A stretch of DNA of 54,489 nt from Chloroflexota bacterium (lineage in GTDB: Bacteria; Chloroflexota; Anaerolineae; UBA2200), in assembly GCA_014360905.1 (NCBI GenBank), contig JACIWW010000020.1:1-54489 (forward strand). The letters run 5' to 3'. Position numbers and translations under genes: made by a program. The notes beneath the pieces were generated by a model. The model did not search any database, was not told the origin of the DNA, and saw only the letters and a list, made by a program, of their open reading frames with translations. Position 1 is the first letter of the stretch. Each line of letters begins with the position of its first letter. Shown in pieces: positions 43,646 to 51,317 of the stretch.

Positions 43646-43667
43646 CTACCATCCCAAAGGAGGAGCC

Positions 43668-44414
43668 ATGGAAATCTTTCTCGATACCGCGAAACTGGAC
43701 GAAATTCGCGAAGCAGTGAAACTAGGAATTATTAGTGGGGTAACGACTAATCCCAGTCTGATGATGCGTGCGGGGCGCGGAGACTATAGAGAGGTTACAC
43801 GCGAGATCTGCTACCTGGTGCAGAATCCCATCAGTGCCGAGGTGGTGAGCCTCGATGCAGAAGGGATGTTGGCTGAGGCTAAGGAAATCGCCACCTGGTC
43901 GCCACACGTCGTGGTCAAGGTTCCTACCATTGCCGAGGGTCTCAAGGCAATGAAAATGATCAGCCGCGAGGAAGTGGACCTGGATCGGCTGTGCCAAGGT
44001 TGCCCATGGCTGGGGAAGTGCGACACGAGCATTGAACTTGCCCGAGAATTAGCATCTTCGTGGGGCATCCGCATCAACGCCACTTTGGTCTTTTCACCGA
44101 ACCAGGCATTGTTCGCCGCCAATGCTGGGGCCGATTTTGTCTCGCCCTTCGTGGGACGGCTCGATGACATCGGTGAGGATGGCATGCAGGTCGTTGCCGA
44201 TATTGTCCAGATCTTCGAGACCTATGGTATAGATACCCAGGTCATCGCTGCCAGCATCCGCCACCCTCTGCATATCACGCAGGCAGCGCTGGCTGGCGCG
44301 GACATCGCCACCGTGCCCTATGATGTCCTGATGAAAGCGCTCAAACATCCCCTGACCGACATTGGGGTAGAGCGCTTCCTGGCAGATTGGGCAAAGGTGA
44401 AAGGGAGCAAATAG
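43668..44414 (+). CDS. transaldolase / fructose-6-phosphate aldolase-like protein with Cys-rich insertion
   Basis: The product is a class I aldolase of the small transaldolase (FSA/MipB) group. The 248 residues begin [20 protein letters not shown]. They carry [15 protein letters not shown] and the Schiff-base Lys84 in VVVKVPT, and [19 protein letters not shown] follows. Relatives are usually about 215-220 residues. Here about 25-30 extra residues (about 99-128) carry Cys109, Cys112 and Cys118 in [11 protein letters not shown]. The start at 43668 after AAAGGAGGAG is preferred to a 43608 reading lacking family similarity. It lies between pyrG and the U32-like gene. Confidence 0.87.
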
Positions 44415-44463: not shown

Positions 44464-45414
44464 ATGAAGTTCGACCATGTGATCAAAGCTATGGAGAAAG
44501 CGGGCATTCCAGGGCGTGATGCCTATGACTTGCCCACGAGCACGAAGCGCTTTCCAGACGGTGCTTGGTACCGCATGGAGGTGTCCGGAGTCGAGCGCCC
44601 ACAAGTGCTTGAAGCCGTGGTGGATGAAGCGGGAAAACGCAAGATGCCCATTCACCGCCTGATTTCCGTGGTGATGGGCGCCACCCTCTTGGACAAGGCG
44701 GAACTGCGCGATTTTGCTCAAATCGCTGCCAACGCCAAAATGGAGGTGATCCTCACCCCCGGCCCTCGCTCGGCTTGGGATACAGGACGCCAATTGGTTA
44801 CCCCAGAGGGTGGCCTTTCCGGCCTGCGCTTCCGCGGCTCTGACCAGTTGCGCTATGTCATCGCCGACATCATGCGCTGCATAGACCTGGGCTTTCGCGG
44901 TTTCCTGGTCATAGACGAAGGGTTGCTCTGGCTACTGAACGAAATGAAGAAGAACGGGGACATACCGCGCGATGTGGTGTTCAAAGTCTCTATCTATGCC
45001 GGGCACGCCTCGGCCGCTGGTGGCAAACTCTTGGAGATACTGGGCGCGAGTACATTCAATCCCTTGGGTGATCTCTCGCTGCCACAGTTGGCGTCCATCC
45101 GTCAGGGCTGCAACATCCCGCTGGATTTGCACATCTACCTGGCGGAGTCCTTTGGCGGATACAACCGCTTCTACGAAGGACCTGAGATGGCTCGTCTCTG
45201 TGCTCCCTGCTACTTCAAGATCGAGCCTGGGCCAGCCTGTGCGGCAGGGCCTGGGGCGCTGTACAAACCATGGACGAGCGTGGATGCCTTGGCTTTCCTA
45301 GCGCGCGAAAAGGTCAAATACGCGCAGATCATCCACGAACTGATCCAGGAGAACTTCCCAGAGGCGACTATGTCAGGCATCGGTCCGGCGGATTTGGCGA
45401 TTCCCAAGCCATAG
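44464..45414 (+). CDS. U32-peptidase-like TIM-barrel protein of unknown function
   Basis: I recognise this as a protein type often annotated as U32-family peptidase, but no catalytic evidence is visible. The 316 residues run through alternating hydrophobic strands and helices, with conserved-looking blocks GRDAYDLPTSTKRFPDGAWY, TPGPRSAWDTGR, GLSGLRFRGSDQLRYVIADI, DEGLLWLLNEM and YFKIEPGPACAAGPGALYKP. No membrane segment is present. AAGGAGGAG precedes the ATG. It lies between the transaldolase-like gene and the first aldolase-Fae fusion, so a role in carbon-skeleton metabolism is plausible. Confidence 0.65.
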   Translation: MKFDHVIKAMEKAGIPGRDAYDLPTSTKRFPDGAWYRMEVSGVERPQVLEAVVDEAGKRKMPIHRLISVVMGATLLDKAELRDFAQIAANAKMEVILTPGPRSAWDTGRQLVTPEGGLSGLRFRGSDQLRYVIADIMRCIDLGFRGFLVIDEGLLWLLNEMKKNGDIPRDVVFKVSIYAGHASAAGGKLLEILGASTFNPLGDLSLPQLASIRQGCNIPLDLHIYLAESFGGYNRFYEGPEMARLCAPCYFKIEPGPACAAGPGALYKPWTSVDALAFLAREKVKYAQIIHELIQENFPEATMSGIGPADLAIPKP

Positions 45415-45499: not shown

Positions 45500-46930
45500 A
45501 TGAAAAGCGTCGCATTCAAACCACGTGGCGTCATGCCCGCTTTAGTAACTCCTTTCACGGCCGATGAGGAGGTGGATGAAGCCGGTCTGCGCACATTGGT
45601 TCGTCACGTCTTGCCCCATGTGGATGGCGTTGTCCCGTGTGGCACAACGGGCGAGTTCGTCTATCTCACCCCAGATGAACAAAGGCGCATTATCGAGATT
45701 GTGATAGACGAAGTAGCCGGACGAGTGCCAGTAATCGCTGGCACGGGTGCTGCCTCGACCCGGCAGGCGGTGCAGTTGGCACGCGCCGCCCAGCAGGCGG
45801 AAGCTGATGCCTGCCTGGTGGTCACGCCCTTTTTCCTACATCCCGCTGATAAGGGCATCTATCAGCACTTCTATGAGATTGCCCAGGCTGTGGACTTGCC
45901 CATCATCATGTACAATATCCCCCAGACTGTGGATGCCTACCTTCCGCGCACGGTAATCGAGGATCTGGCCGATATCCCCAACATCGTCGCGCTGAAGGAT
46001 TCCTCCGGCAATCTCACCTATACCATGGAGGTGCTGGAAATGACCAAGGGTAGGCTAGATGTGCTTATCGGACATGACGAAGTGGTTCTGCCTGCCCTGG
46101 CCGCGGGCTGCAGTGGCATGATTCTGGCCAGTGCGCAGGTCTTTCCTGAGATATGGCAGAAGGTGTATGCTGCAGTCCAGGCAGGTGACCTGGAGACAGC
46201 ACGAACGCTGCAACTCAGCGTGCAAAAGCTAGCGCGCATCTTCTGCCGGCACGGTGGCGGAGTAGCCATCAAAGCAGCGCTGAACATGATGGGCATCAAA
46301 GTCGGTGGCCCCCGCCGTCCGTTGCTTCGGCAAGGCGGTGTGCTCATCAACGAGGTGCGCGCTGAGATACGCCTGGAGCTGGAAAAACTGGGCAAGATCA
46401 GCGCTACAGAGGTGGAGATCGAGGCTCCGAGTGCGCCTTTGCCGGAGCGGTTTGCCTCTCTGGGATTGCCAGCCGACCTCTTGCAATCGAATGGCGTGCG
46501 CATGGGCACTGCGGTAGTTGGCGAAGGTGTAGAAAGGGTACAGATTGACCTAGTGGCGGGCCCCAAAGATGGCCCAGTTGGCGATGCCTATGCGCTGCAA
46601 CTCACCTACCCGCGCCAAGGGCACGAGGCTTTGACTGCCATCCTTGAACCCAATTTGACCGTGCGCCCGGCTACGCTCATCGTGCCCGTCGTGGAACTGA
46701 AGGATCTGCGCCAGGCCAACATGATCTACGGGCCTACGCAGACGGCAGTGGGCAAAGCTGTTGTAGATGGCTTGGCTTCGGGGTTGATACCGACATCTGC
46801 CATGGAGGGAGAGATCATGCTAGCGCAAGTTACCGTGCATCCCCAGGCATTGGACCGCCATCAGATTTATTGGAATGCCTATAGAGCGATGAACGAGGCA
46901 CTGAACAATGCATACAATAGAGGACTCTGA
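45500..46930 (+). CDS. DHDPS/NAL-type class I aldolase fused to a Fae-like domain, copy 1
   Basis: The 476-residue product is a two-domain fusion. Residues 1-300 are a pyruvate-type class I aldolase: CGTTGEF (47-53), Tyr138 in MYNIP, Schiff-base Lys166 in ALKDSSG. The Arg that binds aspartate semialdehyde in true DapA is Thr143, so it is probably not lysine biosynthesis. Residues 332-476 match formaldehyde-activating enzyme (Fae): [49 protein letters not shown]. The AHIDL histidine of Fae is Gln348 here. The start at 45500 after AAAGGAGAG replaces a longer reading from 45437. It is followed by a small Cys-rich protein and a second fusion. Confidence 0.85.
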
Positions 46931-46931
46931 G

Positions 46932-47126
46932 ATGGAATGCAAACAAGAAAAGAACAAACAAACCTGCACCTGTACCTATGAACCATGCCCGCGTAAGGGC
47001 ATCTGTTGTGAGTGCATTGCCTACCACCGTCGCTACGGTGAACTACCTGGCTGCCTTTTCCCGCCAGAGGTAGAGCGCACGTACGATCGCTCTATTGCGC
47101 GATTTGTCGCGTGTTACAAACGCTGA
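46932..47126 (+). CDS. small Cys-rich protein (DUF6485-like)
   Basis: The function is unknown. The 64-residue product has eight Cys: [17 protein letters not shown] plus single Cys at the N end, in GCLFPP and near the C end, with a YDRSIARFV tail. The spacing suggests bound metal. The ATG at 46932 starts 1 base after the stop of the aldolase-Fae gene, which argues for coupled translation; an upstream ATG at 46908 overlaps that gene and is less likely. It sits between the two fusion genes. Confidence 0.75.
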
Positions 47127-47212
47127 GTGGAAGCACTGAGGTGCTCATTACGAGATTGCATTTTCCTGATCTGAGTTAAGAGGCTTTCTTCTCTGACGTG
47201 AAAGGAGCAAAC

Positions 47213-48682
47213 ATGAACAAGAAACCAGAGTGGTTCAAAGGGATCTTTCCGGCTCTGGTAACTCCATTTGTAAATGGCAGGGCTATTGATGAGGCAGCGT
47301 ACCGTGCCTTGATTCGCTTTGTCCTGCCCTATGTGAATGGGGTTGTGCCGGTAGGGACAACGGGCGAGTTCGTCTATTTGACCGAGGATGAGAAACGCCA
47401 GGCCATTGCCATCGCTCTGGATGAAGTGGCAGGGCGTGTTCCGGTGGTTGCGGGCACAGGCTGTGCCAGCACGCGCGATACCGTGGCCCTGACGCGCTAC
47501 GCCAAAGACGCTGGAGCGCAGGCAGCCCTTGTCGTGGCACCTTATTACCTCAAACCTACCTACAACGAGATCTACGAGCACTATGAGGCGGTGAGTAAAG
47601 TCGGCCTGCCGATTATCCTCTACAACATCCCCCAATGCGCTGGTACCCATTACGAATGGTGGACTGCGGAGGGATTGGCACAACTGGATAACGTGGTTGG
47701 CATTAAAGATTCCAGCGGGGACATGCCGTTTTTGATGGCTCTGTTTGAGAAAATAAAGGGGCTGGTCGGCATTTTCTGTGGCCACGATGAAATCATTACT
47801 GCGGCATTGGCAGCAGGAGCAGATGGCGCTATCCTTGCCAGTGCCAACCTTATCCCGGATGTCTGGCAGCAGATTTACGCTGCCGTGCGGAATGGCGACC
47901 TAGCCCAAGCGCAGGCTTTGCAAGCCAAGATCCAGATATTGGTGCGTCTCATCACCAGACAGGGTTCTGTTCAGGCGGTCAAAGAGGGGCTATGGATGAT
48001 GGGACTCGAGGTGGGCAATGCGCGCTTGCCTATGATGCCTGGCGATGCTTTCCGACGCGAGGATCGCGAAGACCTGCGCTGGCAACTGGAAAAGTTGGGC
48101 AAGATCCCGCTACGGGTAATGGAATATGAATTGCGCGGCAAAACGGTGCGTACAACCGTTCCTGCCACACCCCAAACGCCGCACCGGGTCAATGGGTTTG
48201 CTCTGAAGATTGGCGAGGGCTTTGCCGGACCACCTTTCTTCGAGTTGGCACATATTGACCTGCTGTTGGGCGAGCGAGGCGGGCCAGTGGACCGGGCTAT
48301 TGACCAGGCGCTCACTGTATCGCATCCTGGACACGAGGTGCGCGTCATTTACGAACGCCCGCGCACGTTGCTTGTGCCAACTGTTACCTTGCGCACGGAT
48401 AAGCAGGCAGAACACATTTACACTTGGGCCACCAATGGCATTGTGCAGGCTATCGAGGCCAGCATTGCCGATGGCTTCCTGCCTAAAGAGGCGCTGGACG
48501 ATCTGGTCATGATTGCCAATGCATTCGTTCACCCTGCAGCAGCCAACCGCAAGCGCATCGAGGTGAACAACTATAAGGCGATGCGCGCCGCCATTCGCAA
48601 AGCCATTGAGGGGCGTCCCACGCTCGAAGAGATGCTACACGAGAGACAAGCGGTGCGCCACCCATTCCGGTACGCGCCATAA
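47213..48682 (+). CDS. DHDPS/NAL-type class I aldolase fused to a Fae-like domain, copy 2
   Basis: The 489-residue product is a paralogue of the fusion upstream. The aldolase part has VGTTGEF (47-53), Tyr137 in LYNIP and Schiff-base Lys165 in GIKDSSG; the DapA Arg position is Cys142. Residues about 328-489 are a Fae-like domain that keeps the active-site-type histidine (His347 in AHIDLLLG). It also has RTLLVPTVTL, ANAFVHPAA and a C-terminal ERQAVRHPF like that of methylotroph Fae proteins. The start at 47213 follows AAAGGAG. It is the last gene of the rightward cluster and converges with the aldehyde oxidoreductase gene 15 bases away. Confidence 0.85.
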   Translation: MNKKPEWFKGIFPALVTPFVNGRAIDEAAYRALIRFVLPYVNGVVPVGTTGEFVYLTEDEKRQAIAIALDEVAGRVPVVAGTGCASTRDTVALTRYAKDAGAQAALVVAPYYLKPTYNEIYEHYEAVSKVGLPIILYNIPQCAGTHYEWWTAEGLAQLDNVVGIKDSSGDMPFLMALFEKIKGLVGIFCGHDEIITAALAAGADGAILASANLIPDVWQQIYAAVRNGDLAQAQALQAKIQILVRLITRQGSVQAVKEGLWMMGLEVGNARLPMMPGDAFRREDREDLRWQLEKLGKIPLRVMEYELRGKTVRTTVPATPQTPHRVNGFALKIGEGFAGPPFFELAHIDLLLGERGGPVDRAIDQALTVSHPGHEVRVIYERPRTLLVPTVTLRTDKQAEHIYTWATNGIVQAIEASIADGFLPKEALDDLVMIANAFVHPAAANRKRIEVNNYKAMRAAIRKAIEGRPTLEEMLHERQAVRHPFRYAP

Positions 48683-48697
48683 AAGAAACCAGGGTTT

Positions 48698-50665
48698 CTA
48701 TAAGGGATAGGGGTTATACAGCACTGCTTTCAATCCCAACGTTTTCACTGTCTCCGGCAGAGGCCAACCGGTGACTGGGTCAACGCCCATGATCTCGAAG
48801 TAGCTCTTGGACATCGCCTCTGTATCCAGCGTCACACCAGCCAGAGGACCTACCTCTAGAGGAGGTTCTCCGCGCTCGCGTGCTGGCAGCGTAACTTGCT
48901 TTGGCGAGATGCCCTCGCGGGCATTAAAGGCATGGCGCAGGGCCTGGATGCGCCTTCCGATGCGGAGCAAGTCCAGTTCGTCCACATCCCAGCCAGTAGC
49001 AGCTCGTAACCAATCCAGAACGGGTGGTTCACCCATCAACAAACTGAATTGACATAAGCCCAGGGAATCAAAGGCGCGCACCACTTGCATGGCCACGGCC
49101 GCTTCTGCTCCCTTGGCAGCGTAATCATAGCGGTCAGCCGGCTGGAGTCCACTCAGTTTGAGATAGCGCGCGATGGTGGGATTAGCCGTCATCCCGCTAA
49201 GAGTAGCAGTGTGACGACCCGGTGCCGGATCCAGCAGGTAACCAACGGCAACGATGGGCTCGTAGAGTCCGCGGTGCATCGGCAGTTCCTGGCCACCAGC
49301 GTGCACAGCGGCCTCTTGAGCAGCGGGATCGAGCCTCGCCGCGGCTCGCCGTACACCGTCGGCCAGCCATTCCCCGAGTCCTGGCTGACGAGCAGCAATG
49401 CGCCTGGTCAGCTCGATGATTGCTTGCCCATCTCCCCAACGAAGGTCAAGTTCATCAGCTAGTTCAGGCGGCAGACAGCCACGCTCAGCGCACTCGACGG
49501 CAAAAGCCACAGCCACGCCTGTGGAGATGGTATCCAATCCGGCCAGGTTACAGATTTCATTGCAGGCCACCACCGTATCCAGATCAGCGTTCATGAGCAA
49601 TGGGCCGAAAGCAGCCAGTGTCTCGTACTCTGGGCGGTGACCAGTGCCTCCGTCTGGCAATCGGATGGTTGCGCCACATGCGAGCGGGCAACTGTGACAG
49701 GCATATGGTTTAATCTTGGTGCGGATGACCGCCTCATCGCTGATGTTTTCAGCCATGCTGACCGGGTAGTCCCGTACGCTTGTACCCGTCCAATTGCGGA
49801 TAGGGGTATCCTCAAGAGCAACCAGCAAAGCGGTTGCTGATGCTGTCCCGTACAAGCGATAGGTGTCAATGATCATCTGTACTGGGCCGCTAGTGGGTTT
49901 GAAACTGAGACGGCGCAAAAGAGGAGCAAAGACATGGAGGAACTTGGGTACAATGGGTATCCAGCGGGCCGGTTGCCGGCGGAACAATTGGCGGTAACCT
50001 TTTACGCTTTGTTCAAAGGCGTTCTTGTGCGCAAGGGATAGCGTTGCCTTACCCCGTACAGCCACGGCTTTCAAGTTCTTGGTGCCCATCACTGCCCCCA
50101 AACCGCAGCGAGCGGCAATCCGACCGCCATCGTTGACAATCCCGGAGATGAGCGAGCGCTTTTCCCCCGCAGGACCGATGCAGGCCACCTGCACATCTGT
50201 CGAAGTAGCGTGTCGGATGGCTTCCTCCGTCGCGACTGTGTCCAGACCCCACAGCTCACCAGCATCGCGTAGTTCAGCATACTGGTCATCTACGTAGAGA
50301 TAGACAGGGCTCTCTGCTATGCCACGAACGAAGATGCCATCGTAGCCCGCCCCGCGCAAGGCTGGGCCAAATCTGCCTCCGCCATTTGCATCGCCCCAGC
50401 CCCCGGTGAGCGGCGACTTGGCCACCACCATGAAGCGGCCACTGAAAGGCGCGTTGGTGCCAGTGAGCAGACCGGGCAGGAATCCCAATATGTTGTCAGG
50501 GCCTAGAGGGTCAGCGTGGGTTGGGAGGCGTTCGTAGAGCACGCGCACGCCCAGTCCGTATCCTCCTAGATACTGGCGATAGATCTCATCTGGAAGCGTT
50601 TGTGCCTCAAGATGCCCAGTTGAAAGATCAACGAATAGTACCTTTCCCCAATATCCGTTCAACAT
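48698..50665 (-). CDS. aldehyde:ferredoxin oxidoreductase (tungsten/molybdopterin type)
   Basis: The enzyme oxidises aldehydes to acids with ferredoxin as acceptor. The 655 residues start LNGYWGKVLFVDLSTGHLEA. They show the pterin-binding N domain (GGYGLGVRVLYERLP, GGGRFGPALRGAGYDGIFVRG), the CHSCPLACG iron-sulfur motif near 330, and the later Cys in DSLGLCQFS. The layout matches AOR-family proteins of about 600-700 residues. An ATG at 50665 is used; a TTG at 50689 is an alternative that overlaps the previous gene. It ends the leftward operon. Confidence 0.93.
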   Translation of the reverse strand: MLNGYWGKVLFVDLSTGHLEAQTLPDEIYRQYLGGYGLGVRVLYERLPTHADPLGPDNILGFLPGLLTGTNAPFSGRFMVVAKSPLTGGWGDANGGGRFGPALRGAGYDGIFVRGIAESPVYLYVDDQYAELRDAGELWGLDTVATEEAIRHATSTDVQVACIGPAGEKRSLISGIVNDGGRIAARCGLGAVMGTKNLKAVAVRGKATLSLAHKNAFEQSVKGYRQLFRRQPARWIPIVPKFLHVFAPLLRRLSFKPTSGPVQMIIDTYRLYGTASATALLVALEDTPIRNWTGTSVRDYPVSMAENISDEAVIRTKIKPYACHSCPLACGATIRLPDGGTGHRPEYETLAAFGPLLMNADLDTVVACNEICNLAGLDTISTGVAVAFAVECAERGCLPPELADELDLRWGDGQAIIELTRRIAARQPGLGEWLADGVRRAAARLDPAAQEAAVHAGGQELPMHRGLYEPIVAVGYLLDPAPGRHTATLSGMTANPTIARYLKLSGLQPADRYDYAAKGAEAAVAMQVVRAFDSLGLCQFSLLMGEPPVLDWLRAATGWDVDELDLLRIGRRIQALRHAFNAREGISPKQVTLPARERGEPPLEVGPLAGVTLDTEAMSKSYFEIMGVDPVTGWPLPETVKTLGLKAVLYNPYPL

Positions 50666-50681
50666 ATGCCCTTGCTGTGGG

Positions 50682-51317
50682 TTAACCAATGCCCATTGTC
50701 TGTAACATTTCCACCATCTCGGGTGGCAGGTGAGCTGGCTCTTTGCCGAAAAGCTTGCAGGCTAGCAGAACCTGAACCACCTCCTCGATGGCCATGGTGC
50801 GGTTCGCTGCCTGGCGCAGCGTCCAGCCAACAGTCAGCAAGCCATGACATTGCATCAAAACCGCCGGGCTATGCTGCAGTGCCGCGACTACCGCCTCGCA
50901 TAACTCCGTTGAGCCTGATACGTAGTAAGGTATGACCTGTGTATTGATAAATGGAACCGCGTCTACTGTGATGGGTGGAATGCTGCCGTTTATCAGTCCC
51001 AATGCCGTGCATAATCTAGCGTGGCTGTGGATAACCGCTTCGATCTCCTGGTAGGCGGCATAGACAGCCAGATGCACCCTGGTCTCGACCGAAGGGCGCT
51101 GACGACGCTCGTAGGGTCGGCCTTTGCTATTCACCTTCACCATGTCTTCGGGTTTGAGGCCACCCTTGTAGAGCATGGTGGGCGTGATGAGGAAGGCATC
51201 TTCTTCATCGGGGATACGCACCGAAATGTTGCCGCCAGTGGGCGTAATCATCCCCATAGCAAACAGCTCATCAACAACACTGACAATTTCCTGACGCAAT
51301 TCCTGCTCTGTTGCCAT
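50682..51317 (-). CDS. class II aldolase/adducin-family protein (FucA/AraD-like)
   Basis: The product is a zinc-dependent aldolase or epimerase acting on sugar phosphates; its substrate is unknown. The 211 residues include the TPTGGNISVRIP motif near 26-37, ITPTMLYKG, the zinc site HSHARL near 97-102 and CHGLLTVG near 155-162 (usually NHG). ETRVHLAVY gives the conserved acidic residue. It lies between the kinase and the aldehyde oxidoreductase in a leftward operon, a place that suits an aldolase acting on the kinase product. Confidence 0.9.
   Translation of the reverse strand: MATEQELRQEIVSVVDELFAMGMITPTGGNISVRIPDEEDAFLITPTMLYKGGLKPEDMVKVNSKGRPYERRQRPSVETRVHLAVYAAYQEIEAVIHSHARLCTALGLINGSIPPITVDAVPFINTQVIPYYVSGSTELCEAVVAALQHSPAVLMQCHGLLTVGWTLRQAANRTMAIEEVVQVLLACKLFGKEPAHLPPEMVEMLQTMGIG

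Follow-up and report, generated by a model that had tools for sequence, protein, structure and literature searches.

Tandem genes for two aldolase-Fae fusion proteins

The window analyzed here is a stretch of 54,489 nucleotides from a Chloroflexota bacterium (assembly GCA_014360905.1, contig JACIWW010000020.1; genome G000 in our data set), and the subject of this work is a pair of adjacent genes within it, copy 1 (c1) and copy 2 (c2), each of which encodes a barrel of the dihydrodipicolinate synthase (DHDPS) family followed by a domain homologous to the formaldehyde-activating enzyme, Fae. The c1 gene begins with ATG at 45500 and its stop codon ends at 46930, and the c2 gene begins with ATG at 47213 and its stop codon ends at 48682. 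The two genes and their domains are as follows.

45500..46930, plus strand: c1, DHDPS-family barrel and Fae domain, 476 aa (Pfam/NCBIfam, AlphaFold2 and homologues)
45521..46330, plus strand: DHDPS barrel of c1, with Schiff-base Lys166 (xKDSSG) and a residue other than Arg at the position of DapA Arg138 (YNIPQTV)
46505..46921, plus strand: Fae domain of c1, with the AHID His replaced by Gln348 and the C-terminal tail gone; the EPNL loop and YGPTQ are retained
47213..48682, plus strand: c2, DHDPS-family barrel and Fae domain, 489 aa (Pfam/NCBIfam and homologues)
47234..48049, plus strand: DHDPS barrel of c2, with the Schiff-base Lys and YNIPQCAG
48209..48667, plus strand: Fae domain of c2, with AHID His347 and the RHPFRYAP tail retained; the PNL loop is gapped and GPxQ is gone

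An earlier note, made from the DNA letters alone, had described two neighboring genes for proteins of 476 and 489 residues with an aldolase barrel and then a Fae-like part, and our searches confirm both the lengths and the domains. The Pfam DHDPS model matches residues 8-277 of c1 (E 6e-73) and 8-279 of c2 (E 1e-73). The C-terminal halves, for which the note had proposed a profile search, exceed the curated cut-offs of two Fae models in both copies: PF08714 (cut-off 27 bits) matches residues 336-473 of c1 with 139 bits (E 1.6e-40) and residues 333-485 of c2 with 120 bits (E 1.1e-34), and the NCBIfam model TIGR03126, one_C_fae (cut-off 118 bits), gives 138 and 134 bits, respectively. In phmmer searches, the Fae parts of the window proteins match the solved Fae structure 1y5y at 2e-21 (c1) and 1.5e-22 (c2). 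Structure prediction, also proposed in the note, was run for c1, and AlphaFold2 modeled both domains confidently (mean pLDDT 85).

Distribution and selection

The same fusion occurs in two phyla, with 13 carrier genomes among the Chloroflexota and about 15 among the Bathyarchaeota, which answers the note's call for a search in other genomes. A scan of contigs found full-length relatives in ten Chloroflexota (Anaerolineae) assemblies, with a copy 1 identity of 64-91%, and in four Bathyarchaeota, with 50-55% identity; c1 homologues are at L003-L012, L014, L100, and L101. When 400 genomes of the phylum Chloroflexota were sampled evenly, any form of Fae was detected in 7 and the fusion pair in 3 (G000, G192, and G011). 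The two fusions are the only Fae genes of the window's genome (2.83 Mb, 96% complete). In the bathyarchaeal group, 300 genomes yielded 60 with Fae. Their Fae matches include a second class of lower significance (mostly E 1e-58 to 1e-64), and all representatives of it that were fetched, from eleven genomes, are DHDPS-Fae fusions. Many fusion-bearing Bathyarchaeota have an additional Fae gene, mostly within a reading frame that could accommodate Fae-Hps, the archaeal fusion of Fae with hexulose-phosphate synthase.

The fusion genes are under strong purifying selection. Ratios of nonsynonymous to synonymous substitution rates (dN/dS) between the window genes and their relatives, where computable, were 0.02-0.13 for the barrels and 0.06-0.18 for the Fae domains in both copies, including c1, whose Fae domain lacks the AHID His.

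Reciprocal loss of Fae residues

We compared 38 fusion proteins (14 single-copy, 14 c1, and 10 c2) with a reference set of 31 archaeal and bacterial Fae proteins. The AHID His is present in all 31 reference proteins, in all 14 single-copy fusions and in all 10 c2 proteins; at this position every one of the 14 c1 proteins has Gln, Gly, or Ser, and all 14 have lost the C-terminal tail. Conversely, the Pro of the PNL loop and the GPxQ motif, found in 31/31 reference proteins and present in c1 and in the single-copy fusions, are gone from all 10 c2 proteins, which have the AHID His and the tail. The single-copy archaeal fusions retain the AHID His, GPxQ, and an HPF-type tail with small exceptions at most, and the HP of the tail is invariant or almost so in both the reference proteins and these fusions. 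The reciprocal pattern holds in the pair of the bathyarchaeon L014 too. Overall, 39 positions are invariant in Fae, 11 of which are lost in c1, 9 in c2, and 1 in both. Since each copy lacks different Fae-invariant residues, a complete Fae is not apparent in either window protein taken singly. The Fae domains of the fusions are homologues of Fae and at most putative classical Fae enzymes.

Origin of the pair

Phylogenetic trees of the DHDPS domain and of the Fae domain concur: all fusions form one group, and c1 and c2 split after a single duplication. The bathyarchaeon L014 has an intact pair, and in both trees its c1 and c2 are basal to the respective Chloroflexota groups. Most fusion-bearing Bathyarchaeota have a single copy with nearly all Fae-invariant residues, and the standalone Fae proteins of other Chloroflexota lie on a branch distant from the fusions. 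The simplest reading is that fusion and duplication took place in Bathyarchaeota and that the pair was then probably transferred to Chloroflexota.

A barrel of the Schiff-base aldolase type that differs from DapA

The Schiff-base Lys that the earlier note had recognized in the barrels lies in an xKDSSG motif in each of the 38 fusion proteins examined, all of which also have the catalytic Tyr of YNIP. Arg138 of DapA binds aspartate semialdehyde. In alignment with 2yxg, this residue is replaced in all 38 fusions, where the sequence reads YNIP-Q/S-T/C/V/A. DapB (PF05173), required by every known variant of the diaminopimelate pathway, was detected in none of 15 fusion carriers, with 11 of 14 control genomes positive. 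We reject a role as the DapA of lysine biosynthesis on account of the replaced Arg138 and of the absence of DapB from the carriers tested. The barrel would fit a small aldehyde without a carboxylate, and with Fae as fusion partner formaldehyde is the obvious candidate.

Neighboring genes

Three further genes lie near the pair in the window.

43665..44414, plus strand: fructose-6-phosphate aldolase/transaldolase of the TalC/FSA type (TIGR00875, 271 bits, over the cut-off)
44464..45414, plus strand: U, a 316-aa TIM-barrel protein, usually directly upstream of the fusions
48698-50689, minus strand: aldehyde:ferredoxin oxidoreductase (AOR), convergent with copy 2

The window's U protein has no Pfam or NCBIfam match. 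Its AlphaFold2 model is a TIM barrel of moderate confidence (pLDDT 69), and a structure search with this model returned general TIM-barrel matches only (Z about 12-13); class II aldolases, MTHFR, pyruvate kinase, and CutC all match, and the search points to no specific family. A divergent homologue of U (L128) matches Peptidase_U32 (PF01136) over the cut-off at 3.7e-7, and the U family may be a distant relative of these peptidases. Most Chloroflexota carriers have the U gene directly upstream, as do two Bathyarchaeota (L013 and L014), whose U proteins are 65-71% identical to that of the window; U is better conserved than the fusions. It probably moved to Chloroflexota along with the pair. A gene of the U family was found in 36/400 Chloroflexota genomes, fusion-free ones included. 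Because it also occurs in these genomes and does not adjoin the fusion in some carriers, we regard U as a frequent, not an obligatory, partner. The family includes L054-L069 and L118-L134, and its divergent members are often near sugar-acid type enzymes (MR_MLE, MBL-fold, and Zn-dependent alcohol dehydrogenase) and ABC transporters.

The gene order with the TalC/FSA-type neighbor (family F12) is shared in L003-L006 only. An AOR gene adjoins the fusion in the window and L003 and in one bathyarchaeal clade (L109 and L114, with a fragment in L113). The window and bathyarchaeal AORs are only 34% identical and are therefore probably not the same enzyme, which makes AOR weak as a functional link. 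A gene beside the fusion in L110, considered as a threonine synthase, encodes a pyridoxal-phosphate enzyme of the serine/threonine dehydratase type.

A proposed mechanism

The reading that we tentatively favor is that c1 and c2 are subunits of one bifunctional aldolase-Fae enzyme, which would make or consume formaldehyde in cis. The barrel would be a pyruvate-type aldolase of class I (Schiff-base) acting with a small aldehyde that has no carboxylate, most likely formaldehyde. It might interconvert pyruvate plus formaldehyde and 4-hydroxy-2-oxobutanoate (HOB), or cleave a related 2-oxo acid, and the fused Fae domain would load formaldehyde onto a reduced pterin, or release it from one, in cis. 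The enzyme may have originated as a single protein in Bathyarchaeota that was later duplicated; c1 would then have retained one part of the Fae site, the EPNL loop and GPxQ, and c2 another, the AHID His and the C-terminal tail, so that the functional enzyme would combine c1 and c2 in a hetero-oligomer whose sites are composite.

If the active site of Fae lies between neighboring subunits, as in the published structure, a c2-c1 interface would rebuild a full site, and c1-c1 and c2-c2 interfaces would not; such a rebuilt site predicts a c1:c2 hetero-oligomer. The residue patterns suggest that c1 and c2 may assemble into a heteromer in which a single composite Fae site is shared. The losses show a clear regional split: 8 of the 9 losses in c2 fall at positions 54-97 versus 1 of the 11 in c1.

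As for the aldol step, promiscuous aldolases convert pyruvate and formaldehyde to HOB in an engineered E. coli homoserine cycle (PMC8879981), and this reaction is documented for RhmA, a different pyruvate-type aldolase (PMC8879981). For the joining of Fae to an aldolase, Fae-Hps (model NF009833) is a natural precedent. HOB has been described as a non-native metabolite (PMC8879981), and a dedicated natural HOB enzyme would therefore be new.

Several points weigh against this reading. Lys71, present in 31/31 reference Fae proteins and in 4/4 standalone Fae proteins of Chloroflexota, is altered in all fusions (Thr in 14/14 single-copy and 10/10 c2 proteins; mostly Thr or Val, or else Ala, in c1), which may mean a different cofactor or different chemistry. 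The region 54-97 was picked post hoc, after the data had been seen, and the overlap of losses between c1 and c2 is not significant on its own (hypergeometric P 0.19). None of the genes near the fusions reveals a pathway, and U does not adjoin the fusion in L007, L012, L100, L101, and several archaea. Finally, Mch (methenyl-tetrahydromethanopterin cyclohydrolase, TIGR03120) is missing from 10/13 Chloroflexota carriers, two of them with completeness ratings as high as 96% and 100%, and no route is known by which these could oxidize methylene-tetrahydromethanopterin (methylene-H4MPT).

The earlier note had proposed that the barrel hands formaldehyde or another small aldehyde to the Fae-like domain, and had called for a search for methanopterin genes. 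On the one hand, the fusion on which this proposal was built is real and kept in two phyla, and the note's comparison with Fae-Hps is apt. On the other hand, the handover is plausible only, qualified as it is by the reciprocal residue losses, the changed Lys71, and the state of the methanopterin marker: Mch has no match in G000, so that an H4MPT route is not evident in the window's genome, and it is present in 13/15 fusion-bearing Bathyarchaeota and 3/13 Chloroflexota carriers. In two of these three Chloroflexota (L158 and L160; G403 and G407), the neighbors of Mch resemble, by eye, genes of the H4MPT pathway. Beta-RFAP synthase (TIGR00144) was over the cut-off in 0/17 genomes, Mch-bearing ones included, and is thus uninformative as an H4MPT marker. 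The Chloroflexota enzymes may use H4MPT without its oxidation, tetrahydrofolate (H4F), or no pterin at all.

The standalone Fae genes of Mch-less Chloroflexota (L102, L103, L104, and L105) lie beside genes for mandelate-racemase-type enzymes, Zn-alcohol dehydrogenases, and transporters, that of L105 being of the OpuAC glycine-betaine type. This setting suggests a non-methylotrophic use of standalone Fae in Chloroflexota.

Alternative explanations

A rather doubtful alternative is that the Fae domains of Chloroflexota no longer activate formaldehyde on H4MPT and serve instead in oligomerization or small-aldehyde binding, or work with H4F, next to a barrel that is an ordinary aldolase of the 2-keto-3-deoxy sugar-acid type. 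The lack of Mch in most Chloroflexota carriers, with FolD present in most of those without it, is consistent with this possibility, as are the loss of Lys71 throughout, the several invariant residues lost from each copy, and the operons of Mch-less Chloroflexota in which standalone Fae accompanies Zn-alcohol dehydrogenases and an enzyme of the mandelate-racemase type. However, c1 and c2 have complementary Fae residues in all carriers, with or without Mch, which a composite site explains better, and a mere scaffold would need neither the AHID His nor GPxQ.

Another possibility, an unlikely one, is that the enzyme runs in the biosynthetic direction: Fae would free formaldehyde from methylene-pterin, the barrel would add it to pyruvate to give HOB, and an aminotransferase would convert this to homoserine. 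In archaeal carriers, such a route would stand in for homoserine dehydrogenase (PF00742), which was found in none of 11 fusion-bearing Bathyarchaeota (G410, G412, G413, G414, G472, G531, G555, G567, G573, G689, and G694) and in 14/14 control genomes; the genomes lacking it include some with matches on contigs of >1 Mb. It is also missing from 3 of the 8 Chloroflexota carriers tested, 13 of the 15 bathyarchaeal carriers have Mch, and the same reaction sequence has been described for the engineered E. coli cycle (PMC8879981). However, homoserine dehydrogenase is present in G000 and four other Chloroflexota carriers, and the count for Bathyarchaeota covers fusion-bearing genomes only, so that the absence may be lineage-wide; for these reasons we treat the route as a hypothesis. 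A broader version, in which a dedicated natural pyruvate-formaldehyde aldolase joined to the pterin C1 pool makes homoserine from methylene-pterin and pyruvate in archaea that lack homoserine dehydrogenase, and forms a split-site heteromer of two gene products in bacteria, seems to us quite improbable.

That the barrel is simply DapA, with Fae as a passenger, is very improbable. Both barrels exceed the NCBIfam dapA cut-off (TIGR00674, 206 bits; c1 229 and c2, narrowly, 210), DapA enzymes are the closest relatives among solved structures, and G192, G412, and G413 have no DHDPS-family genes besides the fusions; the consistent lack of DapB and of the aspartate-semialdehyde Arg nevertheless argues against it. 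Chimeric assembly, which the earlier note had named as a possible refutation, or gene decay has a negligible chance of accounting for the pair: a bathyarchaeal contig (L117, G659) does carry a U gene in two pieces and a fusion fragment, possibly through decay or assembly error, and copy 1 of G011 is flagged with one in-frame TGA within its Fae match, but the architecture recurs in two phyla and in >25 genomes that were assembled independently, and together with the low dN/dS this rules out a chimera.

Comparison with known systems

In archaeal Fae-Hps, as in the fusions described here, Fae is joined to an aldolase barrel, and formaldehyde could pass between two sites and a pterin. However, the aldolase of the new fusions is of the Schiff-base DHDPS type (PF00701), not Hps; Fae is N-terminal in Fae-Hps and C-terminal here; and the Chloroflexota fusions are two paralogues with reciprocal losses. 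Consistent with this, the window proteins match the Fae-Hps model NF009833 (392 positions) at positions 2-161 only, via their Fae part. Fae of Methylobacterium extorquens (1y5y and 1y60) is matched by an archaeal single fusion at 120 bits (E 1e-33), and the single fusions retain its AHID His, PNL, GPAQ, and HPF tail, whereas all fusions have the changed Lys71 and the added barrel, each window copy is without part of the conserved set, and the window's genome is without Mch. A Fae sequence also occurs at residues 127-287 of PDB entry 8ub7 chain B, labeled Avd, which is presumably an engineered scaffold. With DapA and the wider DHDPS/NAL family, the fusions have in common the barrel, the GTTGE motif, the Schiff-base Lys, and the YNIP Tyr; they differ from DapA in lacking Arg138, in the absence of DapB from their carriers, and in the added C-terminal Fae. 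The proposed reaction type is that of RhmA acting as an HOB aldolase (PMC8879981), but RhmA is a different aldolase and is not fused to Fae.

Implications

The earlier note knew of no described DHDPS-Fae fusion, and we likewise found no paper on one in the literature searched. Here a known domain is fused, in a conserved arrangement, to an aldolase partner that is new, and the duplicated, reciprocally reduced form of this fusion is undescribed in that literature; the mechanism proposed for it is moderately likely, its substrate and cofactor putative. Evolution has tied a second, unrelated aldolase to Fae, and the pair is a clear case of duplication with reciprocal loss in a possibly shared site. 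The role of Fae in bacteria that have no enzymes for methanopterin oxidation becomes a question in its own right, and the fusion suggests that uncultured Chloroflexota and Bathyarchaeota have a non-methylotrophic step that produces or consumes formaldehyde. Should pyruvate and formaldehyde be the partners in the aldol step, nature would have its own version of a reaction described to date for synthetic one-carbon cycles.

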